This document shows positions 289 to 25,239 of a stretch of 25,239 bases of DNA, in pieces (the first letter of the stretch is position 1; every line of letters begins with the position of its first letter). Origin of the DNA: a virus. Location: the IMG/VR virus record IMGVR_UViG_3300042292_000174, positions 1 to 25,239 of that record, one strand, 5' to 3'. The position numbers and the translations under genes were made by a program. A model generated the notes under the pieces. That model was not told the DNA's origin. It saw only the letters and a program-made list of their open reading frames with translations, and made no database searches.

Positions 289-296
289 TATAAATA
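289..296 (+). promoter_or_regulatory. T4-type late promoter element TATAAATA
   Basis: A perfect match to the T4 late promoter core lies in the 28-nt gap before gp25 and ends 4 nt before its ATG. No Shine-Dalgarno sequence is visible between the upstream stop and this ATG. In T4 the element spans about -13 to -6, so a transcript from here would begin at or inside the gp25 start codon. Confidence 0.65.
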
Positions 297-300
297 ACAG

Positions 301-693
301 ATGGCACAATTACAAAAAATATATTCGGATTTAGATTTGAGGTTTACCCCTCAACCTGGAACCAAAGATGTATCGTTATCTTATGACGATCAAGCGGTAA
401 TTCGCTCTATTAAAAATTTGTTATTGACTAAACCCAATGAGAAGTTATGGAACCCAACAATAGGTTCTAATGTTGATGGTCTTTTATTTGAACCGATTAC
501 ACCATTAACGGCGAGTTTGTTACAAGACGAAATAACAAGAACAATAAACAACTGGGAACCACGAGCCAGGATTGCAACTATAGATGTAGTAGCATATCCA
601 GACCAGAATGGTTATAATGTATCGTTATTCTTTTACATAGGAAATAACACTACCCCAACTGGCATTCAACTAGTATTAAAGAGAGCAAGGTAA
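301..693 (+). CDS. 25: Baseplate wedge subunit gp25 (GPW/gp25 family)
   Basis: At 130 residues this matches the usual size of T4 gp25 (about 132). The family's conserved core is visible: an N-terminal YSDLDLRF, a helix with AVIRSIKNLL, the LWNPTIGSNVDGLLFEP stretch and the characteristic NWEPRA segment with the EPR triad near residues 85-90. gp25 joins gp6, gp7 and gp53 in the wedge core and contacts the sheath-initiating end of the baseplate. The only Met is the first residue, so the start is fixed. It has no Shine-Dalgarno sequence and follows a TATAAATA element by 4 nt. It ends 3 nt before gp6, in the same frame. Confidence 0.92.
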   Translation: MAQLQKIYSDLDLRFTPQPGTKDVSLSYDDQAVIRSIKNLLLTKPNEKLWNPTIGSNVDGLLFEPITPLTASLLQDEITRTINNWEPRARIATIDVVAYPDQNGYNVSLFFYIGNNTTPTGIQLVLKRAR

Positions 694-696
694 CAA

Positions 697-2775
697 ATGG
701 CTGGTGCTAATTCACAAATGTCCCTAGTTGGGTTAGATTTTAATACAATTAAAAACAACCTAAAAACATTCCTTCAATCTCAAGATAAGTTTAAAGATTA
801 TAATTTTGAGGGTTCTGGGTTATCCACACTATTAGATGTATTATCGTACAATACACAATATAACGCATTCTATTTGAATATGGTTGCTAATGAAATGTTT
901 CTGGATTCTTCTATTCAGAGATCATCAGTAGTTTCTCATGCAAAAGTATTAGGTTATACACCAAAGTCATATACTGCACCCGGTGCTTATGTAAACATCA
1001 CCACAACTAATACATCAGATTCTAGTGTAACACTACCATCTTATACTAATTTCCTATCAGAATCCGTTGAAGGGGTTAACTATAACTTTTTAACTACCAC
1101 ATCAACCACTGCCGATGTTGTTGAAGGTGTTGCAACCTTTTCTAATATTCTACTTAAACAGGGTCTATCTACCACTTATAGATTTGTTGTTAATGGTACT
1201 ACCAACCCAACCTATACATTTGAATTGCCAGACAATACAATAGACACATCTACCATTCTGGTTACTGTACAACAATCTTCAACAAATACCAGTTATGACA
1301 TATACACAATGTCAGACAGTTATTTGAATATTGATAATACTAGTAGAGTATTCTTTTTGCAAGAATCATTAAATGGAAACTATGAAATAATTTTCGGTGA
1401 TGGACTATTAGGCAAAAAACTAACAGACGGAAACATTGTCAATGTTAGTTATATTATGACACAAGGTAGTTTATCTTCAGGTGCTAATAACTTTACATTA
1501 ATGGATTCTATAAATGGTTTCAATGTAACCAATGTTATTCCAGTAATTGCCGCATATAATGGTAGTGAAAAAGAAACCATTGACTCTATAAAATATCAAT
1601 CACCTAAATCATTTTCTGCACAAAATCGTGCGGTCACAAAAGATGATTATATTACAATCATAAATCAAAACAAAATAGGGTTAACCTTCGATGCAGTAAA
1701 TGTATGGGGCGGTCAAGAAAATGACCCACCAGTATATGGTAAAACCTTTATTTGCATGAAACCTACTAGTGGGTATCTAATAACAGATGCACAAAAAGAA
1801 AAATTGATTCAAGATGTTATTAAACCTTTATCTGTTATGACTGTAGAACCAAGTATTGTTGACCCAGATTATAATTTCATCAAAGTTACCGTTAATGTAA
1901 CATACGACACAAGTAAAACTACATTAAATTCTTCACAGATCAAAAACTTAGTTAAACAAACTATTATAAATTTCGGTAATTCTACATTAAATACATTTAA
2001 TTCTACGTTTGTTCCTAGTGATTTAACTGCATCTATATCCAGTTCAAGTCCTTCAATTGTTGCAAGTGAAGTAACAATACAGTTACAGAAAAAGTTTTAC
2101 CCAAGCATCACCGAAACCAAATCATATAAATTGCATTATGGTGTTCCTATACAAAAGGGTATGTTCCAAAGTGGGGTTAATAGTTCACCGACTCTACAAT
2201 TCGTTGACCCTAATGATTCAACTAAAATTATCACTGGTGTATTGATTGAAGAAATACCTTCCTCTACTGGTGGTATTGAATCTATCTACATTACAAATCC
2301 AGGTTTTAGTTATCTGGTTGCACCAACCGTAACCATTATAGGAAACGGTTCAGGAGCCACCGCAGAAGCAGTTATAGATATTAACGGTTCATTATCTGCA
2401 ATCAATGTTTTAACCCCAGGTAGTGGTTATACCGATGCTCTTGTGCAAATAACTGCACAATCGTATGATACTACTGGACAATCTGGTGCAGCAATTGCCA
2501 ATTTGGAAGGTAAATATGGAACATTGAGAACCTATTACTATAACACACTAAATGCAAAAACTATTCTAAATGCAAATGCAGGTACAATAGATTATATAAA
2601 TGGGGTACTTACTTTAGATTCATTCAACCCTATAGAAGTCGATGATCCATTTGGTAAATTAACCATGTCTGCATCTCCAACAACTTCAATTATTTCATCA
2701 TCTTATAATAGAATTATAACAATAGATCAATACGACCCACAATCAATTGTTGTTAACGTATCTACAAAAAAGTAA
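697..2775 (+). CDS. 6: Baseplate wedge subunit gp6 (baseplate J-like)
   Basis: This 692-residue protein (T4 gp6 is about 660) opens with the gp6 signature: FNTIKNNLKTFL, then GSGLSTLLDVLSYNTQYNAF and NMVANEMFLDSSIQR. A J-like middle region follows, including the segment AQNRAVTKDDYITII near residue 310. gp6 forms the dimeric ring that joins baseplate wedges, bound to gp7 and gp25. Residues about 525-586 hold an insert of two GSGY-type beta half-repeats (GGIESIYITNPGFSY and INVLTPGSGYT) that T4 gp6 does not, to my knowledge, have and that recurs in the three following baseplate proteins. An AAGG Shine-Dalgarno sequence lies 6 nt before the ATG, inside the end of gp25. The stop TAA directly abuts the gp7 ATG. 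Confidence 0.9.
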   Translation: MAGANSQMSLVGLDFNTIKNNLKTFLQSQDKFKDYNFEGSGLSTLLDVLSYNTQYNAFYLNMVANEMFLDSSIQRSSVVSHAKVLGYTPKSYTAPGAYVNITTTNTSDSSVTLPSYTNFLSESVEGVNYNFLTTTSTTADVVEGVATFSNILLKQGLSTTYRFVVNGTTNPTYTFELPDNTIDTSTILVTVQQSSTNTSYDIYTMSDSYLNIDNTSRVFFLQESLNGNYEIIFGDGLLGKKLTDGNIVNVSYIMTQGSLSSGANNFTLMDSINGFNVTNVIPVIAAYNGSEKETIDSIKYQSPKSFSAQNRAVTKDDYITIINQNKIGLTFDAVNVWGGQENDPPVYGKTFICMKPTSGYLITDAQKEKLIQDVIKPLSVMTVEPSIVDPDYNFIKVTVNVTYDTSKTTLNSSQIKNLVKQTIINFGNSTLNTFNSTFVPSDLTASISSSSPSIVASEVTIQLQKKFYPSITETKSYKLHYGVPIQKGMFQSGVNSSPTLQFVDPNDSTKIITGVLIEEIPSSTGGIESIYITNPGFSYLVAPTVTIIGNGSGATAEAVIDINGSLSAINVLTPGSGYTDALVQITAQSYDTTGQSGAAIANLEGKYGTLRTYYYNTLNAKTILNANAGTIDYINGVLTLDSFNPIEVDDPFGKLTMSASPTTSIISSSYNRIITIDQYDPQSIVVNVSTKK
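2269..2454 (+). repeat. GSGY-type beta module inside gp6
   Basis: Two half-repeats of the pattern IxxIxVxxxGxGYxxxPTVxIxGxGSGATA occupy residues about 525-586. The same pattern is found in the gp7, gp8 and DUF4815 proteins of this window. Confidence 0.6.
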
Positions 2776-5604
2776 ATGGCTACTAATTATAACAAAACAT
2801 CGTTACTGATTCCTAGTCAGATTCCTGAATATATTCGGGATGACCCTTCTTATGATAATTTTGTTGCTTTCTTGCAATCATATTATGAATGGTTAGAACA
2901 GGAAGGAAACGTAACAGATAGAGCAAAAAACTTATTAAATTATGCAGATATAGACAAAACTACAGATCAATTTATAAGTTATTTTACCAATGAATTCTTA
3001 CAGTATTTCCCCGAAGAAATTTTAGTAGATAAAAGAACAGCAGTAAAATTTGCAAAGGAATTATATCAATCAAAAGGAACACTATCCGCTTATAAATTAT
3101 TATTCCGTGTATTATATAATTCAGATATAGACATATACTTTACCAAAGATCAAATCCTAAGAGCATCCGATGGTGTTTGGTATATTGAAAGATATATAAA
3201 TTTACTTACAAATGATCTTAGATTTTTAGATACAAAAAACTATAGAATTTTTGGAGAAGAATCTAAGTCATTAGCGACTATTGAAAATTCAGTAGTTGAA
3301 GGTAATAGAATAAAAATATTCATATCAAACCTACAGAGGTCATTCCGTTCTGGTGAATATATCAGAATAGTTAATGATTTCAATCAAGATATTATTATTG
3401 ATGGAGAAAACCTAAGAGCAAAAATCTTAGGTCATGTTTATGAAATTGTAGTTGACTCGAATAATAGAGGAAAATATTATAATGTAGGTGATCCTGTTGT
3501 CGTTTATGGTGGGTTATCTGATGCGAATGGTGTAGGTGCTATAGCAAAAGTAGGTTCAGTAACATCTGGTTCAATTAAATCTATTTCAGTAGTTAATGGT
3601 GGTTATGGTTACAGACCAAACCCAAATACCATTATCAATATAAGCGCACCGGGAACATCAGCGGTAGTAAGTTCAGTAAACACCGATGTTGATAAAACTT
3701 CTTTAGTTAATCTGTTTCCCACTGATAGTATTGAATTACATAAGAATACACAGTTAGGTGCTGTGAGTTATAGTTTTGCAGCATTTAATGCAGCCAATGC
3801 AAACTCTACTTTATTTCAATCATTATCGTTTGTTTCTTTTTCTGCATACCCAATCGCTTCTGTTTTAGTTACAAACAGTGGAAGTCAATTAGCATCATTA
3901 CCAACTATCACCGCTGATTCTATAGTAAATACAGATTACACATATGCATATGTAAAATCACTAGGTATATTAGCAAAACCAATAATACTCAATCCGGGTT
4001 CTGGATATTCATCCGGTGACACTATTAGTATTTCAGGTGGGAGGGGTTATGGTGCATATGCTAATATAACTGTTTCTGGTGGTGAAATCATTGCAGTAGA
4101 TTATGTCAATGGTAGTTCAAATAATTACTGTTTAGGTGGTATGGGTTATACGTCAGATTCACTACCTACTGTATCTATAACCACATCAACTGGTTCAAGT
4201 GGTTCAATCATAATTCCAGGCATATTGGGTGATGGTGCTTCATTCTTACCACAAACTGATGAATTAGGACAAATACAAACTGTTGTGTTAACACAACAAG
4301 GTGAAGATTATGTTGCAACTCCAAATGTATCTTTCAAAGTACAAGACCTTGCAGTTAAAAATATTACTCTTGCGGAAACACCGGAACCAGGTGATATAAT
4401 ATATCAAGGTGTGGATATAGACAACACATCATATATGGCATATGTTGATTCTCTTTTATCAATCAAGAATAATATAAACCCATTAGAGACAGTCTATAGA
4501 TTGAGAGTTTATAATTATTCATCGGCAAATGAATATCCACAAAATATACCAGACCCAAATCAATCAATAAAAATTTACAATAAAACAATAACTGTAAATT
4601 TAACAAATTCTAATGCTGGTGTAGAATCTTATTTCCCATATAACCCAGATTTAAGTGTATTGGGTGTCAATGTATATGCCAAAAATCAACCCACAGCACT
4701 AGGAACTGCAAAATTCTTAAATGGGTTAATCACCAGTGAAGGAAGGTATATCAACACAAAGGGACATTTAAGTTCCTATGATATATTACAGGATGAAAAT
4801 CACAATGATTTCACCTATATGATTATAGTGGAAAAAGAAATTGCCAAATACAGAGAGATGTTATTGAATCTTTTACACCCGGCTGGTTTAAAAGTTCTTG
4901 GTAAGTATTCTATTGTAACCGAATCTAATTTTGACATGCATAATTTTGATTTCACTTATGGTGGTCAACCTCTGAGATATTATGCAAATACTGATACTGC
5001 AACTGCAACCATAGTTGCAGATTTCACCAACAAAAGTAATAATATTATAAAATTCAATAACCTTGCTGGTGCAAACATTGCTGAATTCATAACTGCAAAC
5101 GATACAATAGTTGAATTGATTCCAACTAATGGTCCTAATGTCAAGTCTGAGGTTATATCTGTAAACTATACATCAAATACAGTTGTATTAAATGATAATG
5201 TGTGGTTGACCTTTGCTAACGTTGCATATGTTAATGCAAATACCAACACTATAAATATTGTATCATTAACTGGAACGTATGATTTAATTAATAATGGTGA
5301 TTACAGTGATGCAAATCTACCATTAAAGGATATAGTATTTGCTGGAGACACAATAAAGGTCAATAATGAGACAAAAGTTGTATCTAGTGTAGATTATGCA
5401 AATGGAATAATAACCTTAACTACTAATTTGACAAATAATACGTCATCTAATTTGTCTGTAAATAGAACTGTATTATGTAATTCTTCGCCCGTTTCAGATC
5501 AAGTAATTATATGGCATCTAATAGATTATACCAATATGCCAGTATTAACTGATGGGTACGGCAACAAAATAACAACACAAGACGGTTCACTAATACTCAT
5601 ATAG
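2776..5604 (+). CDS. 7: Baseplate wedge subunit gp7-like, with short N-terminus
   Basis: Residues about 20-135 resemble a central to C-terminal part of T4 gp7 as I remember it: YDNFVAFLQSYYEWLEQ, then LVDKRTAVKFAKELYQSKG and TLSAYKLLFRVLYNSDIDIY (T4 has STKGIEASYKFLFKVLYNEEVEI). A later LLNLLHPAGLKVLG near residues 692-706 resembles the T4 FVHPVGFGF segment. gp7 is the large wedge protein that pairs with a gp6 dimer. The T4 protein is about 1030 residues and carries several hundred residues before this motif, which are missing here. Residues 265-302 and 398-524 are instead GSGY-type beta modules. The ATG follows the gp6 TAA with no gap and no clear Shine-Dalgarno sequence, suggesting translational coupling. 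The fold assignment rests on recall, but the order gp25-gp6-gp7-gp8 agrees. Confidence 0.8.
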   Translation: MATNYNKTSLLIPSQIPEYIRDDPSYDNFVAFLQSYYEWLEQEGNVTDRAKNLLNYADIDKTTDQFISYFTNEFLQYFPEEILVDKRTAVKFAKELYQSKGTLSAYKLLFRVLYNSDIDIYFTKDQILRASDGVWYIERYINLLTNDLRFLDTKNYRIFGEESKSLATIENSVVEGNRIKIFISNLQRSFRSGEYIRIVNDFNQDIIIDGENLRAKILGHVYEIVVDSNNRGKYYNVGDPVVVYGGLSDANGVGAIAKVGSVTSGSIKSISVVNGGYGYRPNPNTIINISAPGTSAVVSSVNTDVDKTSLVNLFPTDSIELHKNTQLGAVSYSFAAFNAANANSTLFQSLSFVSFSAYPIASVLVTNSGSQLASLPTITADSIVNTDYTYAYVKSLGILAKPIILNPGSGYSSGDTISISGGRGYGAYANITVSGGEIIAVDYVNGSSNNYCLGGMGYTSDSLPTVSITTSTGSSGSIIIPGILGDGASFLPQTDELGQIQTVVLTQQGEDYVATPNVSFKVQDLAVKNITLAETPEPGDIIYQGVDIDNTSYMAYVDSLLSIKNNINPLETVYRLRVYNYSSANEYPQNIPDPNQSIKIYNKTITVNLTNSNAGVESYFPYNPDLSVLGVNVYAKNQPTALGTAKFLNGLITSEGRYINTKGHLSSYDILQDENHNDFTYMIIVEKEIAKYREMLLNLLHPAGLKVLGKYSIVTESNFDMHNFDFTYGGQPLRYYANTDTATATIVADFTNKSNNIIKFNNLAGANIAEFITANDTIVELIPTNGPNVKSEVISVNYTSNTVVLNDNVWLTFANVAYVNANTNTINIVSLTGTYDLINNGDYSDANLPLKDIVFAGDTIKVNNETKVVSSVDYANGIITLTTNLTNNTSSNLSVNRTVLCNSSPVSDQVIIWHLIDYTNMPVLTDGYGNKITTQDGSLILI
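3568..4347 (+). repeat. GSGY-type beta modules inside gp7
   Basis: At least three copies are seen: GSIKSISVVNGGYGYRPNPN (residue 265 on), KPIILNPGSGYSSGDTISIS with the following SGGEIIAVDYVNG (398 on), and a degenerate IQTVVLTQQGEDYVATPNVS (about 503 on). They share the spacing of the modules in gp6, gp8 and the DUF4815 protein. Confidence 0.55.
5250..5257 (+). promoter_or_regulatory. Possible internal late promoter TATAAATA
   Basis: A perfect 8-base late promoter word lies inside the gp7 gene, about 355 nt before the fibre gene that starts at 5613. One of only three matches found inside genes, so it may be chance. Its position before a gene that lacks a junction promoter makes it worth noting. 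Confidence 0.3.
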
Positions 5605-5612
5605 GACGAATA

Positions 5613-7583
5613 ATGCCAACTAAAACCATATCACAGTTGCCAGTTTTAACTCAATTAAACGCAAACACTTCAAATACACTTTTCGTTGTAGTAGATATTC
5701 CTTCTGGTGTTGATGGCACAAAATCATTAACCGCTAATGTCTTAGCAAGATGGTTATACGCATATGAAACATTGAATGTAGGTGGAAATGTACTAGTAAC
5801 AGGTAATACTGGTTTAGGTACGGCAACTCCCACACATAAATTACATGTTATAGGTACAACTTCATCTGATAGTTTTATATCTACCGTCGGAGATGGGACT
5901 GCACCACTTGTAGTTTATTCGACTACTCCAGTAGCAAATTTAACTGCTAACACAGTGGTTAATGCTAATCTTTCTGGTGAAGTAACAACCGTGGGGACGG
6001 TCGCAACATTAAATAATGCTTCGGTTATTTCACAGAATTTAACTGGGTTTGTATCTAGTAATGGTGTTATTTCTAGTTCAGACTCTATTATATCATCTAT
6101 CCAAAAATTAGATGGTAATGATGTATTGAATTTAAATACTGCGATGACCTTTGCAAATACCATGAATGTTTGGTTGCAAGCAAATGATGCAGTGACTTTA
6201 AATACTGCAATGAACTATACCAATGACGCTAATACATTCTTGCAAGCAAATGATTTTATAACTTTAAATACTGCAATCAACTATACAAATGCAGCCAATG
6301 TCTTTTTACAGGCAAATGATTTTATAACTTTAAATACTGCTATTAATTACACTAATGCAGCCAATACATTCTTGCAAGCAAATGATTTTATAACTTTAAA
6401 TACTGCTATTAATTACACTAATGCCGCTAATGTTTTCTTACAAGCAAATGATGCAGTTACATTAAATACCGCAATCAATTACACTAATGCAGCTAATGTG
6501 TTCTTACAGGCAAATGACACAATAACTTTAAATAGTGCTAGATCATATACAGATAATGCAAATACATATTTGATTGGTTTAATAAACTATCAAACAACAA
6601 ATAGGTTTTATGTAGACCCTTCTAGAACAGATACTTATACTGCTACCGGTAGTTTAAATAAACCATTCAAAACGGTAGGAGCAGCATTAACCTATATCCA
6701 TGATGGTATAGATAATTCCAGTATTACTAACCCACAAGTTAACCCGATTTATATATCATTAAAAAATTCAACTACTGAAAACATTACCTTAACTAGAGGT
6801 AAAATATTCTTGGTTGGTGAATCTTCTGTACTATATAACCCAATAACAATAAATGGAACCATTACAGTAAATGGCGCCAATACAAGCACCAATGCGATTG
6901 ATGTTAATTATTTTGTACTTAGTGGGTTATCAGTTATCGGAGGGGATAATAATGCATGTATACAAACCTCTGGAAGCAACGCACAGAGTCTATTACTAAA
7001 AGATATTAAAATAAGTGCAAGTGGAAGTACGGGTGTTGGTATATACGCCAATAATACAGGTGTTAGGTCGAGTGATGGTAAATTGTCATTTATCCGTGGT
7101 TCAGATATCATAGTAAGCCATACTGGCACTGGTGATGTTTATTGTTTCAACATAAACAAAGGTACTGCTGAGTTTACTAATGTAGAAACTATCAATGCAA
7201 CACAAGTAGGTGCTGCACAAACTGGTGCAAAATTATCATTTATAGGTAGTCAACTACAAGCAAATGGAGCAACTTGTGTAGAATCATATGGTACTGGTGA
7301 ATTAAACATATTGAATTCATCTATCACAAACACCAGAATTGCAGCTGATACCTACGGTATTTGGTTACATGATAGTGGTTCTCTCGCTATTGTAGACCAA
7401 TGTAGGTTTGATATTAGAGACACGGTGAATTCAGGCAGTCGGGCAGTAAAAGGTGTGTCTGGGTCTATAATAGTTTATTCTAACCTATCATTTGCTGCAA
7501 ACTCAACATATGGAAGCACTAATAATTTATTAGATACCGCAGTAAGTTACTACCTGTTGACTAATTCATTTACAAGAGTATAA
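5613..7583 (+). CDS. Fibre-like protein with 22-residue repeats and beta-helix
   Basis: This is a 656-residue structural protein of likely tail-fibre or spike type. Residues 1-50 (TKTISQLPVL...SLTANVLARWLY) match an N-terminal module common in phage fibres. GNTGLGTATPTHKLHVIG near residues 68-85 is a familiar fibre motif. Residues 170-323 form seven 22-residue repeats. From about residue 330 (RFYVDPSRTDTYTATGSLNK, then PFKTVGAALTYI) the chain reads as a right-handed beta-helix with many short beta turns. An AGGA lies 7 nt before the ATG, overlapping the gp7 stop. Its place between gp7 and gp8 is unlike T4. Whether it sits on the baseplate as a short fibre is inference; the ligand is unknown. 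Confidence 0.7.
   Translation: MPTKTISQLPVLTQLNANTSNTLFVVVDIPSGVDGTKSLTANVLARWLYAYETLNVGGNVLVTGNTGLGTATPTHKLHVIGTTSSDSFISTVGDGTAPLVVYSTTPVANLTANTVVNANLSGEVTTVGTVATLNNASVISQNLTGFVSSNGVISSSDSIISSIQKLDGNDVLNLNTAMTFANTMNVWLQANDAVTLNTAMNYTNDANTFLQANDFITLNTAINYTNAANVFLQANDFITLNTAINYTNAANTFLQANDFITLNTAINYTNAANVFLQANDAVTLNTAINYTNAANVFLQANDTITLNSARSYTDNANTYLIGLINYQTTNRFYVDPSRTDTYTATGSLNKPFKTVGAALTYIHDGIDNSSITNPQVNPIYISLKNSTTENITLTRGKIFLVGESSVLYNPITINGTITVNGANTSTNAIDVNYFVLSGLSVIGGDNNACIQTSGSNAQSLLLKDIKISASGSTGVGIYANNTGVRSSDGKLSFIRGSDIIVSHTGTGDVYCFNINKGTAEFTNVETINATQVGAAQTGAKLSFIGSQLQANGATCVESYGTGELNILNSSITNTRIAADTYGIWLHDSGSLAIVDQCRFDIRDTVNSGSRAVKGVSGSIIVYSNLSFAANSTYGSTNNLLDTAVSYYLLTNSFTRV
6120..6581 (+). 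repeat. Seven tandem 66-nt (22-residue) repeats
   Basis: The unit is DxxTLNTAxNYTNxANxFLQAN. Copies start at 6120, 6186, 6252, 6318, 6384, 6450 and 6516; the first and last are degenerate and the middle five nearly identical. A length of 22 is two hendecads, which fits a trimeric coiled coil or other rod with 11-residue periodicity. Confidence 0.9.
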
Positions 7584-7586
7584 ATA
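7579..7586 (+). promoter_or_regulatory. T4-type late promoter element TATAAATA before gp8
   Basis: A perfect match overlaps the stop codon of the fibre gene (TAA 7581-7583) and ends 4 nt before the gp8 ATG. This is the same spacing as at gp25. No good Shine-Dalgarno sequence lies close to the ATG; the nearest purine run, AAGAG, is about 13 nt away. Confidence 0.65.
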
Positions 7587-7590
7587 AATC

Positions 7591-8967
7591 ATGGCTAATA
7601 AAACACTTTTAACAAATGCGGCAAAATTATATTCTGTACAGAGTTGGTACTATAGTCCAGTATCTATAACACCACCATATACTACTATACCCGACTCGAC
7701 ATATATGTTTGTGTCGCATATTGACCCTTGGGAGATTGATTCTGCGCCGCCTACACCAACCCAAGACCAGAAATCATTAAAAACTATAATGAAAAAAATA
7801 TTTGCTGTAAAGAAATTAACAGCAAATGATATTTCACCAGTCCTACAAAGAATAGATTGGGAATCTGACACTGTTTATGATTATTATGATGATAATGTAG
7901 ATATGACTGAACTTGACCAAAATGGGTATTTGGTCAACAATTTTTATGTGAAAAACAAATACGATCAAGTTTTCAAATGTTTATGGAATAATAATGGTGC
8001 TGTATCAACAGTAGAACCATATTTCGAACCGGGGACATTCAGTGTAAATAACATTTTCGCGGGTAACGATGGTTATAAGTGGAAATACATGTATGTCATA
8101 AGTCCTGGTTTAAAAGTTAAATTTATGAATACAGAGTGGATGCCTATTCCAACATCAACCACCAGCCCTAATTCAATATCAACTGATGCAGGATGTGGTA
8201 ATATAGATGTAATTAACATTACAAATGTTGGTTCTGGTTATGATGCAGTTAATACAACAATATTTGTCACAGTAACGGGTGATGGACAAAATTGCAGTGC
8301 ATCAGCAGTTGTTGCAAACGGTGAAATAACAAATATAACTGTATCTAACACTGGTAAAAATTATACATTTGCCAACGTAACTATTACATCTACTAATAAT
8401 CAAATAGGTTCCGGTGCAACGGCTATTGCACCTATTTCTCCAGTAGGTGGTCATGGGTTTGACCCTATATCAGAACTTGGGTGTGCTCATGTAATGTTTG
8501 CACCACAAATAAGTGGTTCTGAAAATGGTTATATCCCTACTGATATAACATACCACCAAGTGGGGTTATTAGTCAATCCCATATCACAACAGTCGGTAAA
8601 TGCAGGTGCTCCTAATGCAAATGGAGAAATATATAAAACTAGCACCGATTTAGTGGTTTCTGGTTTTGGAATATTTTCCCCGAATGAAACAGTATATCAA
8701 GGAACTAGTTTAGAAACTTCGACATTTTCCGGTACTGTTTTATCATTTAACGATAGTAGCAACCTACTTAGCCTTATAAATACAAAAGGCACACCGACAA
8801 CAGATACCACTATTACCTCAAGTAATAGCGTATCACAAACAGTGTTATCTTATACCACATCAGATTATGATATATTCTCTGGATATATTACATACATAGA
8901 AAATAGATCAGGTATTGAAAGAAGTGCAGACGGCATCGAACAATATAAAATAATTTTAGGATTCTAG
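7591..8967 (+). CDS. 8: Baseplate wedge subunit gp8
   Basis: T4 gp8 features can be followed through the chain: an early FVSHIDPWEID (T4 has FGRSEPW), RIDWESDTVYDYYDD near residues 87-101 (T4 RRDWGDTRY), NNFYVKNKYDQVFKCLWNNN, the GNDGYKWKYMYVISP turn near 158-172 (T4 GDGYVWEYLFEIPP), and the C-terminal SGYITYIENRSGIERSADG followed by EQYKIILGF (T4 GEMIYMENRPPI). gp8 bridges gp7 and gp10 in the wedge. At 458 residues it is longer than T4 gp8 (334). Much of the difference is a GSGY-type insert at residues 202-283. Spacing and lack of a Shine-Dalgarno sequence at the start are unusual, but the N-terminus aligns with T4, so the start is kept. Confidence 0.88.
   Translation: MANKTLLTNAAKLYSVQSWYYSPVSITPPYTTIPDSTYMFVSHIDPWEIDSAPPTPTQDQKSLKTIMKKIFAVKKLTANDISPVLQRIDWESDTVYDYYDDNVDMTELDQNGYLVNNFYVKNKYDQVFKCLWNNNGAVSTVEPYFEPGTFSVNNIFAGNDGYKWKYMYVISPGLKVKFMNTEWMPIPTSTTSPNSISTDAGCGNIDVINITNVGSGYDAVNTTIFVTVTGDGQNCSASAVVANGEITNITVSNTGKNYTFANVTITSTNNQIGSGATAIAPISPVGGHGFDPISELGCAHVMFAPQISGSENGYIPTDITYHQVGLLVNPISQQSVNAGAPNANGEIYKTSTDLVVSGFGIFSPNETVYQGTSLETSTFSGTVLSFNDSSNLLSLINTKGTPTTDTTITSSNSVSQTVLSYTTSDYDIFSGYITYIENRSGIERSADGIEQYKIILGF
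8194..8439 (+). repeat. GSGY-type beta module inside gp8
   Basis: Two half-repeats, IDVINITNVGSGYDAVNTT and GEITNITVSNTGKNYTFANV, are followed by a GSGATA turn. This is the same architecture as the insert in gp6. Confidence 0.6.
8775..8782 (+). promoter_or_regulatory. Possible internal late promoter TATAAATA
   Basis: A perfect late promoter word inside the gp8 gene, about 195 nt upstream of the DUF4815 gene start. It could serve that long gene together with the GATAAATA at the junction, or be chance. Confidence 0.3.
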
Positions 8968-8975
8968 GATAAATA
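8968..8975 (+). promoter_or_regulatory. Late promoter-like GATAAATA
   Basis: A NATAAATA variant lies in the 9-nt gap between gp8 and the DUF4815 gene and ends 1 nt before the ATG. Too close to drive translation of that ATG. An AGGA at 8966-8969 serves as Shine-Dalgarno sequence, so the match may partly reflect the ribosome site and AT-rich start context. Confidence 0.3.
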
Positions 8976-8976
8976 A

Positions 8977-11900
8977 ATGAAAGATTACAATATCTCGCCT
9001 TATTACGATGATTTTGATTCTACGAAAAACTATCATCGTATACTATTTAAACCAGGTGGTGCGGTACAAGCAAGAGAATTAACTCAGTCACAGACTATTC
9101 TTCAGGATCAGATTTCAAAATTTGGTCTTGGTGTCTACCAAGATGGTTCAAAAGTATCTGGCGGTAATATAACTATTGATACACAAATAGTTACAGCAAA
9201 ACTTATAAGTAATGCGAATAATGTGTCATCTTTTGTTGATTTATTTGCCGTTGGTTCTACATCTAAATTTATATCACAAGTTGTTGAAGTTGATGCAACA
9301 AATAAGTATATAATAACAAAACCAGTTAACGTTGAAAATAACTCTTCGTTTGCTTCTGGTGAAACAATAAAACTATATTCTTCAAAAGCACAAGCGTTGA
9401 ATTCTTTAAATTCCGCTGTTACTGAAAAATATGTATCTCAAATAAAAACAGAATCTTATGTATTAGTAAATGCTACTGGGGAACAGTATGATGATTCCCT
9501 AACTATGCAAACAGTTAATTTGAGTGTAGGAGATGAACTTTATATCTCTACTATTAATTTCAGATCAACTATTGTAAGTCTCAGTTCTGATGGCAATTCC
9601 TTAACATTAGATAAACCACTTCCCCAATCAATTACTAGTGCATCTGCTAATGTAACTAATAAAATATCAGTAAATGCAACACAATTTAATATCGATCAAG
9701 GTGTTTGGTTCACAAATGGTTTCTTTGTATCCAACTATAATAGTTCTATAATCCCAGACGCTCTGAGTGTTTACCCATCAGTAGTTGTTGGTTTTGAATT
9801 ATTAGAATCAACAGTCACTTATTTGAATGATGATTCTTTATTAGACCCAGCAATAGGTGCTTCTAATTATCAGGCACCTGGTGCAGATAGATATTGCCTT
9901 CAATTCAATTTAACAACAAAACCATATGTTGACCAACAAACTGTTGGTAATCTGACAACAAATAAGTTTATTGAATTAGCAAGAATCAATAAAGGAATAG
10001 TAGAGAGTGTCAATAAAACTCCTATTTTCCCAGAAATTAGTAAGTCTATTGCACAATCTGTTTATGACCAATCTGGTGATTTTATAGTAAACCCGTTTAG
10101 TTTAAGTATTGGTAATTCTTCAGCTAATAACGCAAATATTGTATCTCATATCAGTGCAGGTAAAGCATATATCAGTGGGTATCCAGTTGAACATACCGCA
10201 CCAACAAAATATGTTTTAGAGAAGGCAAGAGATTACACATCAGAAACAAATATCAACGTTAATAGTTATTACGGTAGTTACTTAAAAATTAAAGATATTA
10301 GTGGAACAATACCAACCTTTTCCACTGGTGAAATTATAGATTTGCGAGATTCATCTGATGCCATAATTGGTAAATCCAGAGTTAGAAATTTTGCATTTGA
10401 AGGAGATACTACTCTTTCTTCTAATACTGCATCTAAAATATTTTTATATGATATATCTATAACAAATTCATCATTTTCTATTGCGAATGTATCAAGTGTA
10501 AAATCTAATACAACTAGTTTCGTAGCGAATGTTAATAATGCACTAAACAGTACAGTTTTATATGATGGGTCATATAATTCTTTAGTGTTTGCATTAGACC
10601 AAATTAATATCAAAGAAGTAACAAATGTTGACTATGTAACAACAAGACGACACTCAGCTACATTTAGTGCTGGTGTTGCAACATTATCATGTGCATCGAA
10701 TGAAGATTTCTTGGATGCGGGTAGTGCATCATTACGTCAAAGATATTACACTATAGTACTTTCCAGTGGTCAATTTATTGATATGGGCTGGTCGAATGTA
10801 AGTATAACCACTGGATCACATAGCGTAACCTTAAATTATGCCAGTTATGGAGGCACAGCTACAGTATTTTCAACAATTAGTGTAACTAATGACCCAATAA
10901 AAGTTAAAACAGCAAATACAAATGTAGCGGTTTTAGTAAATGCCGATGCAAACACTCCTATAGATTTGGGAGTATCAGACATTTATAAGTTCCACGGTGT
11001 TTATGAAATAGGCGCTTCTAAACCATATCAAGGCGCTTGGAACAGTGGTACTTCTTATACCACAAACCAATCTGTATCATACTTGAACACGGTATATTAT
11101 GCCACAACCAGTTCAACAAACCAGAACCCAGTTACTAATACATCGGCTTGGTCAGTTGTAACTAATGGTGCAGGAACTAACTTTACAACTGATAGTGGTC
11201 AACGTGACACCCATTATGACCACGGTTATATCACTAACATCAGTGGTGTTGCAAAAAGTAATGTAGTTGCAGTATTCGATTACTTCACACATTCTGGTGG
11301 GTCTGGTTACTTTGATGTAAATTCTTACAACAGTATAAATTATAATGAAATTCCATCATTTACATCTCAACAATATGGTACAACATATAGTCTAAGAGAT
11401 GTTATAGATTTCAGACCAAGAAGAACTGATGGTGCAACTACATTTGATAGTTTCCAATTACCAGCACCTTTCAATAATGCGTTTGTAGATTATGCATACT
11501 ACCTGAGTCGTATTGATAAAATTACCATGTTCCCTAATGGTCAGTTCAAAACAATCAGAGGAATAAGTTCATACTTAAATCCGGTTGAACCAGTTGACCT
11601 TCCAGGTGCATTAACTCTATTTACCTTAAATTACGCACCATATACTTTCAGTGGGGATGACATTACCGTTGTACCTACAAATCTGAGAAGATATACAATG
11701 AGAGATATTGGTATTCTGGACAGAAGAGTAACTAATCTAGAATATTACACAACTCTTTCTTTAGCTGAAAATGAAGTATCTGGTGGTGATGTTACTGATG
11801 CATCAGATGGTCAACGATTATTTAAAAATGGTTTCTTGGTTGATGGGTTTAAAGGACACGGTGTAGGTGATGTAAATAACCCAGATTACAAAGCGTCTAT

Positions 11901-14787: not shown

Positions 14788-14981
14788 AAATAGCCAAAGT
14801 TCAAGACCATCCTGATTTAGTGAGAGATTTGGAGAGTAATGCTGTATTAAATACCAACTATGCAGCATTACTCGAATATAGAAAGAAACAACAAATGGTT
14901 AAAGATATGGATTTATTAAAATCAGAAGTTGTGGAACTCAAAGAAATGATGGGTCAAATTCTTTCGTTATTAAATAAATAA
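14784..14981 (+). CDS. Small coiled-coil protein, unknown function
   Basis: A 65-residue charged protein. The N-terminus MKIAKVQDHPDLVRDLESNA is followed by AVLNTNYAALLEYRKKQ and a C-terminal heptad stretch (MDLLKSEVVELKEMMGQILS), predicted to be a coiled coil of about 25 residues. I recall similar short proteins (HPDLVRD...LNTN...) after large baseplate genes of marine T4-like phages, with no known role. The ATG overlaps the preceding stop as ATGA, so the two are translationally coupled and probably needed together. It might be a minor virion part or an assembly factor for the DUF4815 protein. Confidence 0.75.
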   Translation: MKIAKVQDHPDLVRDLESNAVLNTNYAALLEYRKKQQMVKDMDLLKSEVVELKEMMGQILSLLNK

Positions 14982-14984
14982 ATA
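14973..14984 (+). promoter_or_regulatory. Overlapping late promoter-like AATAAATA words
   Basis: Two overlapping AATAAATA matches (14973-14980 and 14977-14984) span the stop codon and the start of the 28-nt gap before the S74 fibre gene, leaving about 25 nt to the ATG and room for the AAAAGG Shine-Dalgarno sequence. A T-run follows at 14992-14997. A simple TAAA tandem repeat is the alternative reading. Confidence 0.4.
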
Positions 14985-15913: not shown

Positions 15914-16447
15914 ATGCCTGTTACATTGAACAATTTGGGTATTGTCTTTTCAGATACTACCTCTATGACCACTGATGAAATTCCATCTAATACAAGGACG
16001 GTGTTTGCTAATACATCAGCACCCTCTGGATGGACAAGGTTAACAGGAATAGATACATTTAACGATTCTATGTTGCGATTAAGTTATGCAACAGGTGGTT
16101 CGTCTGCGGGTTCTGGTGCATTATCTTTTGGTGCAAATACAGTTCCTTCTCATACACATACTTACACCACATCAGCTCCATCTACTCAACATAATCATTA
16201 TATCGCAGATAATGGTCACTACCATTATTATGCAGGTTCTTTTTATGATTATGATATATCTGTTGTTGCTGCACCTAATCCTTATTATACAGCAACAACC
16301 CTACAACCAACAACCGCGGCAGCACCTTCTGCCACATTCGGTAATCAAAGTGTTTCACATTATCATACAGCAACAACAGGATCGGCATCTTCATCAGGAA
16401 CTTGGATTCCGAGATATGTTGATGTTTTAATATGTTACAAAAATTAA
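15914..16447 (+). CDS. Tail-collar/fibre-tip protein with HxH motifs, copy 1
   Basis: A 177-residue protein, first of three tandem paralogues. The N-terminus MPVTLNNLGIVFSD and the C-terminus WIPRYVDVLICYKN are shared with the other two; the middle differs. The segment TSAPSGWTRLTG (about 35-46) is the start of the phage tail-collar/microcystin-dependent-protein-like fold, also found near the end of T4 gp10 and gp12. Four HxH motifs lie at His80/82, 93/95, 102/104 and 149/151. In T4 gp37 such motifs from three chains bind iron along the fibre tip, so a trimeric metal-bearing tip is a reasonable inference. An AAGGG Shine-Dalgarno sequence lies in the end of the upstream gene. Confidence 0.8.
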   Translation: MPVTLNNLGIVFSDTTSMTTDEIPSNTRTVFANTSAPSGWTRLTGIDTFNDSMLRLSYATGGSSAGSGALSFGANTVPSHTHTYTTSAPSTQHNHYIADNGHYHYYAGSFYDYDISVVAAPNPYYTATTLQPTTAAAPSATFGNQSVSHYHTATTGSASSSGTWIPRYVDVLICYKN

Positions 16448-16456
16448 GAGTTTAAT

Positions 16457-16996
16457 ATGCCAGTAATACTAACTTCTAGTGGTATACAATATTCTGATAG
16501 TACAACCACCACAACAAAACCATTCCCTATAGGTGCAAATACTATTTTTTGTCAGGCAGCAGCACCGACAAACTGGACGAGAATCAATCGAGATGACAAT
16601 TCCATGATCCGTGTTTTGACAACATCCGGTGGTACAACTGGTGGTACACATAATGTATCAACAGGAATAACCGGTTCACATGTTCCATCACATACACACT
16701 CGGCAACAACTGGTGGTATATCATCAGACCATACACATACCGTATCAGTTACAGGTCACAATCATACCAATTTAAGAACTGTTTCGGCCGCGGCAGGTAT
16801 TATGTATCAAACAGGTTCACAGATGGCATCATATTCCGCAGGTAATATGTATTGGAATACTTATTTGGGTTATCATAGTTACACAGTAGCATTAGATTCA
16901 TCACATACACACAGTGGAACAACTGTTGCAAACCCATCAGCAGCTAATTGGGTTCCGAAATATGTAGATTTTATTTTTTGTCAAAAAACTTCTTAA
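16457..16996 (+). CDS. Tail-collar/fibre-tip protein with HxH motifs, copy 2
   Basis: A 179-residue paralogue of its neighbours, beginning MPVILTSSGIQYSD and ending WVPKYVDFIFCQKTS. The collar segment is AAAPTNWTRINRDD. HxH pairs occur at His79/81, 92/94, 101/103 and 150/152, nearly the same register as copy 1. The central stretch (TNLRTVSAAAGIMYQTGSQM) is unrelated by eye to the same region in the other copies, as expected if that loop region contacts the receptor. AAGAG acts as the Shine-Dalgarno sequence 9 nt upstream. Confidence 0.8.
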   Translation: MPVILTSSGIQYSDSTTTTTKPFPIGANTIFCQAAAPTNWTRINRDDNSMIRVLTTSGGTTGGTHNVSTGITGSHVPSHTHSATTGGISSDHTHTVSVTGHNHTNLRTVSAAAGIMYQTGSQMASYSAGNMYWNTYLGYHSYTVALDSSHTHSGTTVANPSAANWVPKYVDFIFCQKTS

Positions 16997-17010
16997 TAGG
17001 AAACTAAAAA

Positions 17011-17616
17011 ATGCCGGTAACTTTGACAAATGCAGGAATACAATTTTCTGATGGTACATTTACTAATACAAATCCTATACCATCAGGAACACAAATGTTC
17101 TTTTTGATGGCGGCCGCTCCTTCTGGGTGGACAAAAATAGTAACAGATATAGCTAATGATAGAATATTAAGAATTAATACAACATCTGGTAGTGGCACAG
17201 GAGGAACATCTTCAACAACATCAGTGTCTACATTACCAGACCATACCCATACATTAGGCACAAATGATTTTGCATCAGTAACACACTCCCATACATTAAC
17301 AGCAGGTAATCATACACACTCATATCGTCAAATAACAAATGCACTAACAAATAATCAAGGAGGTCCGGGCACTGTAGGTGGGACTGGTGTTACTGGTATC
17401 GTGGACAATTCTCCATCTGGTTCAGCATGGACGAGTGATGCTTTTGGTGCGGGAGCCAAGAATCCAAATCCAGGTCAGGGGGCAGTAGCTGGGTCTGGTA
17501 TAACAGGTACATCAGGCGCTTCAACTAACCATACACATACACTAACAACAGGAACAGGCCCGAGTGTAAATTGGCAACCAAAATATATAGATAGTATACT
17601 TTGCAGTAAAAATTAG
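17011..17616 (+). CDS. Tail-collar/fibre-tip protein with HxH motifs, copy 3
   Basis: A 201-residue member of the trio, beginning MPVTLTNAGIQFSD and ending WQPKYIDSILCSKN. The collar segment is AAAPSGWTKIVTD, then ILRINTTSGSGTGGTS. HxH pairs lie at His78/80, 92/94, 101/103 and 174/176; the extra length lies in a Gly/Pro-rich loop between the third and fourth pairs (QGGPGTVGGTG, NPNPGQGAVAGS). A strong AGGAAA Shine-Dalgarno sequence precedes it. Of the three it is closest to generic collar proteins. Confidence 0.8.
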   Translation: MPVTLTNAGIQFSDGTFTNTNPIPSGTQMFFLMAAAPSGWTKIVTDIANDRILRINTTSGSGTGGTSSTTSVSTLPDHTHTLGTNDFASVTHSHTLTAGNHTHSYRQITNALTNNQGGPGTVGGTGVTGIVDNSPSGSAWTSDAFGAGAKNPNPGQGAVAGSGITGTSGASTNHTHTLTTGTGPSVNWQPKYIDSILCSKN

Positions 17617-18351: not shown

Positions 18352-18387
18352 AAAACCTTCTCGCATAAATAAACGAGAAGGTTTTTT
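18352..18387 (+). terminator. Rho-independent terminator, perfect 12-bp stem
   Basis: The arms AAAACCTTCTCG (18352-18363) and CGAGAAGGTTTT (18374-18385) pair perfectly around a 10-nt loop and run into a six-T tract (18382-18387). The A-run on the left arm means it could act on both strands. It is the only strong hairpin terminator I found, 23 nt after the four-Cys gene, and it divides the block into two transcription units. Confidence 0.9.
18364..18371 (+). promoter_or_regulatory. Late promoter word CATAAATA inside the terminator loop
   Basis: The loop sequence is CATAAATAAA, a NATAAATA variant. If used, transcription would start in or near the right arm, about 30 nt before the ATG at 18406. 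The AGGG at 18396-18399 would be the Shine-Dalgarno sequence. Confidence 0.45.
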
Positions 18388-22515: not shown

Positions 22516-22878
22516 ATGGCCGTAAATGCAGATTTACCATTAAATACATTTAAAACATTAACACATGATATTACTACTACTGAAACTATAGTTTACACTT
22601 GTCCACCAGGTGTTACCACTGTTGTTTTATTGAGTCAAGTATCCAATATACATGCGTCTAATACATTTTTTGTTTCTGCATATATATCGAGGTATATTTC
22701 TTTCGAGACATATTCAACCACATATCTAGTTAAAAACGCCCCTATACCAACCAAAGATGCTGGTACATTATTAACTGGTAAATTAATTTTACAAGAAAAC
22801 GATAGACTTGTGGTATTTGGAAATGCATCAAACACCGCGCAGTTAGTAGTTTCATACCTAGAAACAGCCAATGCCTAA
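22516..22878 (+). CDS. Small all-beta virion protein
   Basis: A 120-residue protein reading as one beta sandwich: FKTLTHDITTTETIVYTCPP, GVTTVVLLSQVSNIHASNTF, KDAGTLLTGKLILQENDRLV, QLVVSYLETANA. I recall proteins of this pattern (ITTTPTTVYTAPAG...LLTGKLVLEAGD) among structural genes of marine T4-like phages, but no function is assigned. One cysteine, no membrane segment. AAGGAA precedes the ATG by 6 nt, and the stop overlaps the next gene by 8 nt, so its product is probably made with and used beside the 700-residue fibre. Confidence 0.75.
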   Translation: MAVNADLPLNTFKTLTHDITTTETIVYTCPPGVTTVVLLSQVSNIHASNTFFVSAYISRYISFETYSTTYLVKNAPIPTKDAGTLLTGKLILQENDRLVVFGNASNTAQLVVSYLETANA

Positions 22879-24973
22879 CAGTATAAAACTTTTAAGTGGG
22901 AGAGTACCCACAAGTAATGCTTACTTAGTAACATCAGACCGTTACCAGTTTATTGATTTAACTTCTGTTGAACCAAATCTAGGTGTTCCAAGTGGTCCAA
23001 TAACAGGAAACAATCAATATATTCTGTTATTTGATACTGACCCCCTTACTGGTTATAGAAGATGGGCAAATTTAAGTAATTTATTACCCCCACCATTAAC
23101 TGTAGATATAAAAACAGTTATCTATACAGCAAATGTTGGGGATACAGTGTTTGTTACCCCTCAATATGTACCATCATCAAATCAGATAAATTTATACATT
23201 GATGGTGTAAAACAGTATCCTACAGAATTTATAGAGACCTCACCAACTTCTATAACATTAACTAATGCAGCATCACAAGATGATATAATTCTTATCGAAG
23301 TTATATCTACTGGTACTAGTTCTGGTACATCTGCCGGTGCAAACGTTATCAGTATTATAAACAATAATACTTCACTTAATGTATTTTACCCAACATTTTT
23401 ATCGAATACTTCAGGTAACTTAGAAGTAATATACACATCCAGTCCATATTATAATTTTGTTCCTAATACTGGAACATTAACCGCAAACTCATTTGTAGGT
23501 AATGGTTCTGGGTTAAATAATTTAAATGCTTCTAATTTAACTTCAGGTACAGTTAATACAGCCAGACTTGCAACTGGAACTGCAAACGCGAATACTTATC
23601 TTTCTGGTGATGGTACTTGGAAAGTAATCACTATCCCAGACACAAACAATGTAAATCACGCAAACACTGCTGATTTCGCAAATACATCACTGTTTGCAAA
23701 TAATTCCAATAGTTCTAATACTTCTTTATTCGCAAACACTTCATTATTTGCCAATACATCACTGTTAGCCAACACTTCTCTATTTGCAAATACGGCACTG
23801 TTCGCCAACACTTCATTATTTGCTAACACTTCATTATTTGCTAACACTTCATTATTCGCTAATACATCACTGTTTGCAAATACTTCGTTGTTTGCTGATA
23901 ATTCTAATAGTTCTAATACATCTCTGTTTGCTAACACTTCATTATTCGCTAATACATCACTATTTGCAAATACTTCTTTATTTGCCAATACGTCACTCTT
24001 TGCTGATAATTCAAATAGTTCTAATACATCACTATTCGCCAATAATTCCAATAGTTCTAATACGGCACTGTTCGCCAATACTTCTTTATTTGCTAATACA
24101 TCACTGTTTGCTAATACTTCAAACTTAGCAAATTCATTAGTTCATTCATTATCATTTATAAATGATGGGTCGGGTGTTGCATCTGGTTCTAGTTATAATG
24201 GTTCTAGTGATATAACTATATCGTATAATTCCGTAGGTGCTTCTCCATTAGCCGGTAGTGATAGTTTAGTAACAACAGGTAATGTAACATCTGGTATTTG
24301 GTATTCTTCTATAGGTGCAGTTTCCGGTGCAAACTTAACCAACCTAACTGCTGATAATTTATCAGGAACTATACCAAGTGCAGTATTAGGTAACTCTAGT
24401 TTATACATCGGAACAACTTCTATTGCATTAAATAGACCATCTGGTGCATTAACACTTAATGATATAACACTCACCAACCCAGTTATTAATGGTTTTACTG
24501 GTGATAACTCTATTATTAATATAGCTAATGGTCAATTCTATAAAGATACTAGTGGACGAATCGGTATCAATACTACTGACACTACCGACTATACATTTGA
24601 AATAAATGGGTCATTTGCGGCCGTTCAAAAAGCATTCGTAATTAATCATCCAACCAAAGAAGGGATGAAATTAAAACACGGTTCATTAGAAGGACCAGAA
24701 AACGGCGTATATGTAAGAGGTCGTAGTGAAAACACTGTCATATTTTTACCCGATTATTGGACAGGACTAGTAGACGAAAATACAATCTCAGTAAATTTAA
24801 CTCCTATCGGTGATAGTGTTATACCAAGAGTATCCCATTACATAAACAATACTATAGTTGTTTTTTCAAAGGAACAAGGGGATTTTAATTATTACTTTAC
24901 TGTTTTTGCAGAAAGAAAAGATGTAGATAGGTTGATTGCCGAATATGAAAAGCAACCACCATCAATCACATAA
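22871..24973 (+). CDS. Tail fibre with 26 hexapeptide repeats and conserved C-terminal head
   Basis: A 700-residue fibre. The N-terminus (YQFIDLTSVEPNLGVPSGP... GYRRWANLSNLLPPP) is a frequent fibre attachment module; residues 77-147 (VIYTANVGDTVFVTPQY, INLYIDGVKQYPTEF) form a second beta module seen in marine phage fibres. A hexad array covers residues 267-422. Beyond it come short beta words (GASPLAGSDSLVTTGNVTSG). The C-terminal about 115 residues (FVINHPTKEGMKLKHGSLEG, PENGVYVRGRSENTVIFLPD, YWTGLVDENTISVNLTP, FTVFAERKDVDRLIAEYE) are a conserved head I recall from many phage fibres, possibly a trimerisation or chaperone domain. The start lies 8 nt inside the previous gene and has only a weak ribosome site, so translational coupling is likely. 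Confidence 0.82.
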   Translation: MPNSIKLLSGRVPTSNAYLVTSDRYQFIDLTSVEPNLGVPSGPITGNNQYILLFDTDPLTGYRRWANLSNLLPPPLTVDIKTVIYTANVGDTVFVTPQYVPSSNQINLYIDGVKQYPTEFIETSPTSITLTNAASQDDIILIEVISTGTSSGTSAGANVISIINNNTSLNVFYPTFLSNTSGNLEVIYTSSPYYNFVPNTGTLTANSFVGNGSGLNNLNASNLTSGTVNTARLATGTANANTYLSGDGTWKVITIPDTNNVNHANTADFANTSLFANNSNSSNTSLFANTSLFANTSLLANTSLFANTALFANTSLFANTSLFANTSLFANTSLFANTSLFADNSNSSNTSLFANTSLFANTSLFANTSLFANTSLFADNSNSSNTSLFANNSNSSNTALFANTSLFANTSLFANTSNLANSLVHSLSFINDGSGVASGSSYNGSSDITISYNSVGASPLAGSDSLVTTGNVTSGIWYSSIGAVSGANLTNLTADNLSGTIPSAVLGNSSLYIGTTSIALNRPSGALTLNDITLTNPVINGFTGDNSIINIANGQFYKDTSGRIGINTTDTTDYTFEINGSFAAVQKAFVINHPTKEGMKLKHGSLEGPENGVYVRGRSENTVIFLPDYWTGLVDENTISVNLTPIGDSVIPRVSHYINNTIVVFSKEQGDFNYYFTVFAERKDVDRLIAEYEKQPPSIT
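23669..24136 (+). repeat. 26 tandem hexapeptide (18-nt) repeats
   Basis: The unbroken array of six-residue units is mostly SLFANT with variants ALFANT, SLLANT, SLFANN and SLFADN, plus four SNSSNT units always preceded by a unit ending in N. Codons vary between copies (for example TCTTTATTCGCAAACACT against TCATTATTTGCCAATACA), while runs of two to four units recur at the DNA level, showing higher-order duplication. Confidence 0.92.
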
Positions 24974-24999
24974 ATAATAAATTATAAGGTTTATAAATC
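24969..24999 (+). promoter_or_regulatory. Late promoter-like CATAAATA (and TATAAATC) before the last gene
   Basis: CATAAATA (24969-24976) overlaps the stop of the 700-residue fibre gene and lies 24 nt before the next ATG, with TAAGG at 24985-24989 as ribosome site. A second word, TATAAATC (24992-24999), one base off consensus, lies right before the ATG and is too close to serve it with a leader. Confidence 0.4.
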
Positions 25000-25000
25000 A

Positions 25001-25239
25001 ATGACAACAAAGGTCAGAAGTTCAGTATTAGCGAATACATCTGTTGTTGCTGGCACTTATGGTAGTAATACAGATGTAGTAGTTATTACAGTAGATGCAC
25101 AAGGTAGGTTGACTTTTGCATCTCAAATATCTTTATCTAATACTTTTGTTGATGCAAATACAGCTCAATCAATTTTTGAATTAGCGAATACAGCTTTACA
25201 TTTAGCACAGACAGCAATAGATATCGCTAACACCAAATA
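25001..25239 (+). CDS. Tail fibre-like protein, N-terminal part (3' end cut off)
   Basis: An open frame from ATG 25001 runs off the right edge, giving about 79 residues. It begins MTTKVRSSVLANTSVVAGTY and continues VVVITVDAQGRLTFASQISL, a collagen-like/fibre shaft word also seen as TTDGYGRVSG in the S74 fibre. The final part (FVDANTAQSIFELANTALHL, AQTAIDIANTK) has Ala/Asn-rich 11-residue spacing typical of coiled-coil fibre rods. A fibre or fibre connector is likely; the rest is outside the window. Confidence 0.65.
   Translation, partial: MTTKVRSSVLANTSVVAGTYGSNTDVVVITVDAQGRLTFASQISLSNTFVDANTAQSIFELANTALHLAQTAIDIANTK

Follow-up and report, generated by a model that had tools for sequence, protein, structure and literature searches.

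The late promoters of phage T4 (gp55/gp33/gp45) have been described (PMC2988020), and their motif occupies positions -13 to -6 (PMC1524935), which places +1 on the sixth base after the motif. The T4 consensus matches TATAAATA, with a variable first base, and CTAAATA is found in Aeh1 (PMC1524935). In cyanophages the late promoter motif is NATAAATA (PMC2984593), and in S-PM2, Syn9, Syn33 and P-SSM4 the first base of the motif is likewise not conserved. For the Methylophilales phage Melnitz, 15 late promoters have been predicted, leaders not being discussed in the part of the report consulted (PMC9004378), and attempts to predict late promoters in pelagimyophages are reported to have failed (PMC7029224). 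Leaderless genes have been recognized by a -10 box located about 12 nt ahead of the start (PMC3160421), and initiation on leaderless mRNAs by 70S ribosomes at a 5'-terminal AUG has been reviewed (PMC9031893). Phage transcripts are often leaderless according to PMC5312081, which cites other work on this point and whose own phage, AR9, is leadered.

We analyzed a 25,239-base virus record (IMGVR_UViG_3300042292_000174; 34% G+C), hereafter the window, whose content is the T4-like baseplate and tail-fibre region of a virus of bacteria (Table 1). An earlier note on this DNA had described a TATAAATA exactly 4 nt before the gp25 ATG, the lack of a ribosome site and the lack of any other Met in gp25. 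These observations were borne out: the motif (289-296) is followed by the spacer ACAG (297-300) and the ATG at 301, no Shine-Dalgarno (SD) 4-mer (AGGA, GGAG, GAGG or AAGG) is present in the -20 to -1 region, and the translation of gp25 contains a single Met, at position 1. An in-frame start further upstream is excluded by the in-frame TAA at 295-297. The first T of TATAAATA lies 12 nt before A301, which is the distance given for the -10 box of leaderless genes. The note had also held that T4 geometry would place the transcript start at the start codon; this is off by one base, as with a 4-nt spacer strict T4 numbering puts +1 on the T of the ATG (302), a point that counts against a transcript beginning exactly at the A.

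Table 1. Features of the window discussed in the text
Feature	Position	Strand	Remarks
TATAAATA, T4-type (gp55) late promoter core, predicted	289..296	+	4 nt before gp25 ATG; spacing conserved in relatives; T4 consensus match
In-frame TAA directly before gp25	295..297	+	Overlaps promoter core; read from sequence
gp25, baseplate wedge subunit	301..693	+	phrog_261, E 2e-44; mRNA predicted leaderless, 5' end at or a few nt from A301
gp6, baseplate wedge subunit, downstream in operon	697..2775	+	phrog_219; control gene with SD-like motif, without NATAAATA
Wedge-like gene, labelled gp53-like by this analysis	2776..5604	+	phrog_17744; without SD, without motif
Second TATAAATA	7579..7586	+	Again 4 nt before ATG (7591)
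gp8-like baseplate wedge subunit; the second late gene predicted to be leaderless	7591..8967	+	phrog_438
GATAAATA	8968..8975	+	1 nt before ATG at 8977; overlaps SD-led start
AATAAATA	14977..14984	+	Ordinary leadered geometry, 25 nt before ATG at 15010
CATAAATA	18364..18371	+	Ordinary leadered geometry, 34 nt before ATG at 18406
CATAAATA	24969..24976	+	Ordinary leadered geometry, 24 nt before ATG at 25001

The TATAAATA 8-mer is found five times in the window, always on the + strand, compared with 6.7 expected occurrences. Because there is no excess, enrichment of the bare motif was dropped as an argument, which therefore rests on spacing and not on number. The arrangement TATAAATA-N4-ATG occurs twice in the window, at 289-303 (gp25) and at 7579-7593 (gp8; cyanophage gp8 annotations occur among the matches of this gene), and is absent in a reversed-pattern control. 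The GATAAATA at 8968 was rejected as a late promoter and regarded as a chance look-alike, since, among the distinct upstreams of the 8977 gene, 43 of 44 (isolates included) lack NATAAATA within 70 nt and 41/41 have an SD 4-mer; missing in relatives, the stretch at 8968-8977 is a useful negative control. Elsewhere in the window, we noted protein-coding tandem repeats with 66-base units (6165-6540, within the ORF at 5613-7583) and with 36/108-base units (SLFANT-like; 23681-24123, within the ORF at 22871-24973). Three adjacent ORFs at 15914-17616 (177, 179, and 201 aa) share the beginning MPV[TI]L... and, judged by their translations, look like paralogous tail-tip or fibre proteins.

To compare the gp25 junction in relatives, as the earlier note had proposed, we collected 60 gp25 loci from IMG/VR by protein and a second set of 80 loci by gp6. 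A quick gp6 tree, used only for clade grouping, placed the window and 62 representatives in one group (63 rows, SH-aLRT 97) outside the SAR11/OM43 and cyanophage isolates, with three other isolates on long, unsure branches. Within this clade, the identity of gp25 to that of the window goes down to about 46%. When the 60 gp25 loci were tallied by eye, NATAAATA preceded the ATG in 54 (38 at 4 nt, 15 at 5 nt, and 1 at 7 nt); five of the remaining six carry ACTAAATA at 5 nt, and one (L008) has neither motif and an AGG at an SD-like distance. Among 77 distinct homology-anchored upstreams of gp25 from both sets (isolates excluded; 8/157 loci were unusable, lying at an edge or having no start), NATAAATA is found with a spacer of 4 in 61, of 5 in 11, and of 7 in 1 and is missing from 4, i.e. 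it stands 4, 5 or 7 nt before the ATG in 73/77 upstreams of uncultured relatives. The spacing at gp25 is conserved to a degree well above chance, with 72/77 at 4 or 5 nt. The same is seen at gp8, where, after 12 of 87 matches that begin beyond residue 60 had been dropped, 47 of 52 distinct upstreams (isolates excluded) have NATAAATA 4-7 nt before the ATG (30 at 4, 3 at 5, 3 at 6, and 11 at 7), one has it at 22 nt, and four are without it. The motif is absent within 70 nt in 82 of 83 distinct upstreams of gp6 and in 78/78 of the gp53-like gene, isolates included in both cases. The fixed spacing is not simply a matter of close kinship, because the surroundings of the motif vary widely in sequence from locus to locus. 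We noted that the base before the ATG at the 4-nt spacer is mostly G at gp25 (37/61) and C at gp8 (27/30, AATC-ATG) and that the 7-nt class of gp8 resembles the 4-nt class with one codon added. Many relatives share a conserved A-tract/GCG stretch ahead of gp25, which was considered as an upstream promoter element and rejected: in the few rows that were translated by hand, it gave a PDxFQ..KKRFYS-like peptide, as the end of the coding part of the upstream frame.

The spacing was then surveyed in 139 sequences (1.8 Mb) that overlap and are enriched for gp25 and gp6. The 358 distinct NATAAATA sites fall into two classes with respect to ATG-started ORFs, 122 being at 4-7 nt, 2 at 8-21 nt, and 56 at 22-34 nt; the control motif NATTTATA gave no peak of this kind. 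Three gene families belong to the short class (gp25, 67/67; gp8, 47/49; a third family, 7/7), although these counts over-represent gp25 and gp6 because the loci were fetched with patterns from those two genes of the window. The third family was identified, by means of a homologue from a SAR11 phage, as the gp2 DNA end protector (phrog_429). Leadered geometry is typified by a family of ~447-449 aa (43/44 at 25 nt or more), and the leadered late promoters of clade phages generally lie 16-39 nt from the gene, usually with an SD sequence. Genome-wide, compared with composition-matched permuted motifs, ATAAATA at 4-8 nt was found 5, 2, 4, 2, 2, and 3 times in six clade records (G001-G006; G004 scanned over 120,000 of 121,249 bases) versus 0.3-0.9 expected. 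It was likewise found 12 times versus 0.9 in HTVC008M, 7 versus 1.3 in Mosig, 3 versus 0.8 in Melnitz, and 3 versus 0.6 in P-SSM4 and was not found in the genomes of Syn33, T4, and phi-pp2. Inclusion of the CTAAATA core added one site at 5 nt in T4 and one at 4 nt in Syn33. The ATG of gp2 stands at spacer 4 in 6/6 clade records (five of them with CTAAATA) and at spacer 5 in 3/3 SAR11/OM43 phages. The tail tube gene has CTAAATA or NATAAATA at spacer 5 in G003, G005, HTVC008M, and Mosig and a longer leader with an AAGGAG-like SD sequence in G001, G002, G004, and G006. CTAAATA is an alternative late core in the clade (gp19 and gp2 genes of G001-G006), as in Aeh1, and is missed by scans for TATAAATA alone.

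An independent estimate of the transcription start came from scoring the likely initiating purine after the motif, in leadered promoters alone so that the ATG would have no influence on the count; the comparison genomes entered this count without thinning by family. In T4, cyanophages, phi-pp2, and SAR11/OM43 phages the purine peaks at +6 (only +5 versus only +6, 14 versus 60 pooled), whereas in the clade of the window it peaks at +5 (63 versus 24 over all 120 sites and 34 versus 11 once the largest gene family is removed). When each family contributes a single site, the clade counts are 16 versus 6, a preference that is only slight with the clade taken alone (p 0.05) and counts against a leaderless reading; the difference between the clade and the other groups gave Fisher p values of 1.8e-9 without the largest family and 5e-6 with one site per family. 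The spacers of the short class differ in the same manner: the six clade records have 18 at 4 and 6 at 5, and HTVC008M, Mosig, and Melnitz have 0 at 4 and 21 at 5. At genes of the short class, the A of the ATG falls on +6 in SAR11/OM43 phages, where the spacer is 5, and mostly on +5 in the clade, where it is 4; the start-site geometry of the clade appears to be one base shorter than that of T4. We consider this agreement between the estimated start site and the position of the ATG to be the strongest single argument that the mRNA would start at the AUG.

Taken together, the motif and its conserved spacing, the lack of SD sequences, the exclusive use of AUG, and the gp55 homologue of the long relatives lead us to favor, with considerable confidence, the explanation that gp25 would be read from a leaderless mRNA made at a gp55-type late promoter. 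Specifically, we infer that TATAAATA at 289-296 acts as a T4-type late promoter read by RNA polymerase with a gp55-type late sigma factor and that transcription would begin at or within a few bases of A301, giving a gp25 mRNA without a leader or with one of at most about 4 nt. Ribosomes, probably 70S, would translate this mRNA by recognizing its 5'-terminal AUG directly. The clade would then have a small set of late genes with the start codon at the late start site (gp25, gp8, gp2, and sometimes the tail tube), an arrangement probably shared in part by SAR11 phages (gp25, gp2, and tail tube), and the other late genes would keep a leader, mostly with an SD sequence. Consistent with the proposed machinery, a gp55-family late sigma factor (phrog_34068) is encoded in 15 of the 16 genomes searched, the window not being one of these, including 7/8 clade records, and is absent only from a 77-kb fragment. 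A single scan of genome contigs for a relative, as a clue to the host, gave no match.

Start codon usage and ribosome signals point in the same direction. At spacer 4-5 in the clade, the start codon is ATG in 107 cases and GTG or TTG in none. An SD 4-mer occurs in 3/77 upstreams of gp25 and in 0/52 of gp8, although this absence is partly mechanical at spacer 4-5 because the promoter fills the SD position. These phages do use SD sequences, as an SD 4-mer accompanies 47 of the 74 leadered promoters of the six clade records, and AGG, GGA, or GAG is present in 70/70 upstreams of gp6. The gp53-like gene has an SD sequence in 0/76 upstreams and no promoter, and its start lies directly on the gp6 stop in the window (2776) and at a gap of -4 to 0 in most relatives, often overlapping (-4 or -1), so it is probably translated by coupling to gp6; the lack of an SD sequence alone is, therefore, no proof of leaderlessness. 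The first 45 nt are weakly folded in gp25 of the relatives (mean minimum free energy (MFE), -0.78 versus -6.34 further in) and in gp8 (-1.31 versus -3.09), but a similar tendency in the SD-led 8977 gene (-2.53 versus -6.30) makes this support weak.

The earlier note had offered two options, a leaderless gp25 mRNA or a promoter serving only the genes downstream. In the second case, the promoter would serve gp6 and the genes beyond it, SD-less initiation on longer transcripts from upstream would produce gp25, and the motif would owe its place to a free gene boundary. It is true that gp6, with its SD-like motif, directly follows gp25 and that read-through RNA from the upstream gene is possible. 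However, the distance to the gp25 ATG would then be free to drift, yet the 4- or 5-nt spacer is kept in nearly all upstreams however much room is available before the gene (2 to 105 nt), and spacer and purine offset shift together between clades. We consequently regard this explanation as unlikely, and of the two options it is the leaderless one that is strongly supported by the fixed spacing, the AUG-only starts, the lack of SD sequences, and a purine offset that tracks the spacer. We think it very unlikely that translation of gp25 is coupled to that of the gene before it and that the promoter is incidental: although the gp53-like gene indicates that coupling is seemingly used in this operon, the upstream stop in the window ends 28 nt before the gp25 ATG, and in relatives the closest open frame upstream stops anywhere from 2 to 105 nt short of it, without one preferred value. 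Finally, that ATAAATA next to the ATG is an A/U-rich, S1-type ribosome-binding element of a leadered mRNA and not a promoter, as A/U-rich upstream stretches have been discussed as S1-type signals in SD-less genes (PMC3160421), seems extremely improbable given that the motif is also found 16-35 nt upstream of other genes having SD sequences, that it matches the established late consensus, of which CTAAATA is a variant reported for Aeh1 (PMC1524935), that other genes of the operon lack it, and that gp55 occurs in relatives.

Several observations count against the leaderless explanation. The clade also uses spacers of 5 (11/77 at gp25) and 7 (11/52 at gp8), so some transcripts would carry 1-3 extra bases, and the A-rich spacer would permit transcript starts 1-3 nt upstream of the ATG. 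In Melnitz, which is nearer to HTVC008M, the gp25 spacer is 16 nt and contains AGGAG, and gp8 is leadered in HTVC008M (18 nt) and Mosig (25 nt).

Compared with known systems, the clade shares the 8-mer TATAAATA with the T4 late promoters, and its long relatives have gp55 homologues. In T4, however, an ORF of at least 60 aa begins with its ATG 4-8 nt after 0/64 ATAAATA sites and after only a single CTAAATA site, and NATAAATA was not found in the 300 nt upstream of gp25. In the clade, the ATGs of gp25, gp8, and gp2 coincide with the presumed start site, which is nearer to the motif by one base. The earlier remark on how unusual leaderless late mRNAs would be in T4-like phages fits T4 itself but not the clade or the SAR11 phages. 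Cyanophages have the promoter at the same genes (gp25 in Syn33; gp8 in Syn33 and P-SSM4) but with leadered spacers of 24-27 nt, apart from three sites at spacer 5-6 in P-SSM4 and the CTAAATA site of Syn33; leadered gp25 spacers are 24 nt in Syn33, 21 nt in S-SRM01, and 23 nt (with GGAG) in phi-pp2. In the Pelagibacter myophages, TATAAATA precedes gp25 at spacer 5 in HTVC008M and 8 in Mosig. HTVC008M, Mosig, and Melnitz have 12, 6, and 3 ORFs, respectively, at spacer 5 genome-wide, and gp2 stands at spacer 5 in all three; they differ from the clade in that the spacer is 5, not 4, and the purine is at +6. The gp25 of Melnitz is leadered with an SD sequence, and the leadered gp8 of HTVC008M and Mosig is as in cyanophages (27). 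Leaderless mRNAs such as lambda cI and mycobacterial and other bacterial ones likewise have a -10-like box ~12 nt before the AUG, an AUG start, no SD sequence, and weak 5' structure, but lambda cI and bacterial leaderless genes have a host sigma70-type promoter, whereas the clade would use a phage late sigma factor, at a few virion genes only.

Two phage-encoded candidates for helping leaderless translation were rejected for the clade. A bS21 homologue (PF01165) was found in 1/20 genomes, HTVC008M only (W06, 91237-91392), and in 0/12 clade records. The hallmark of an initiator tRNA is the GGG/CCC pairs of the anticodon stem; G001-G005 have one to three tRNA-Met(CAT) genes (three each in G001, G003, and G004), none with these pairs. 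The long relatives G001 (L155-L163), G003 (L164-L172), and G002 (L208-L215) encode 24-28 tRNA genes and a predicted tmRNA.

Late promoters and leaderless translation are each known, but we found no description of T4-type phages having a defined class of leaderless late genes in which start-site offset and spacer shift together, and our search of the open-licence literature gave no report of leaderless late mRNA in these phages. We put forward, tentatively, that fusion of the late promoter with the start codon in a fixed set of virion genes may form a transcription-translation gate, in which only RNA from the late promoter would be translatable and upstream read-through RNA would be silent. Such a gate might be kept by selection, with spacer and start-site offset evolving together, and might have arisen by loss of the ~20-nt leader that these genes still have in cyanophages and KVP40-like phages. 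More broadly, our analysis leads us to expect that leaderless late mRNAs form a systematic class in T4-like phages of aquatic habitats, cultured SAR11 phages included, with 5' ends predicted to the base. It offers an evolutionary comparison in which the same promoter stands before the same gene with and without a leader, and it bears on the annotation of start codons and on how the ribosomes of streamlined hosts may initiate on phage RNA without an SD sequence.
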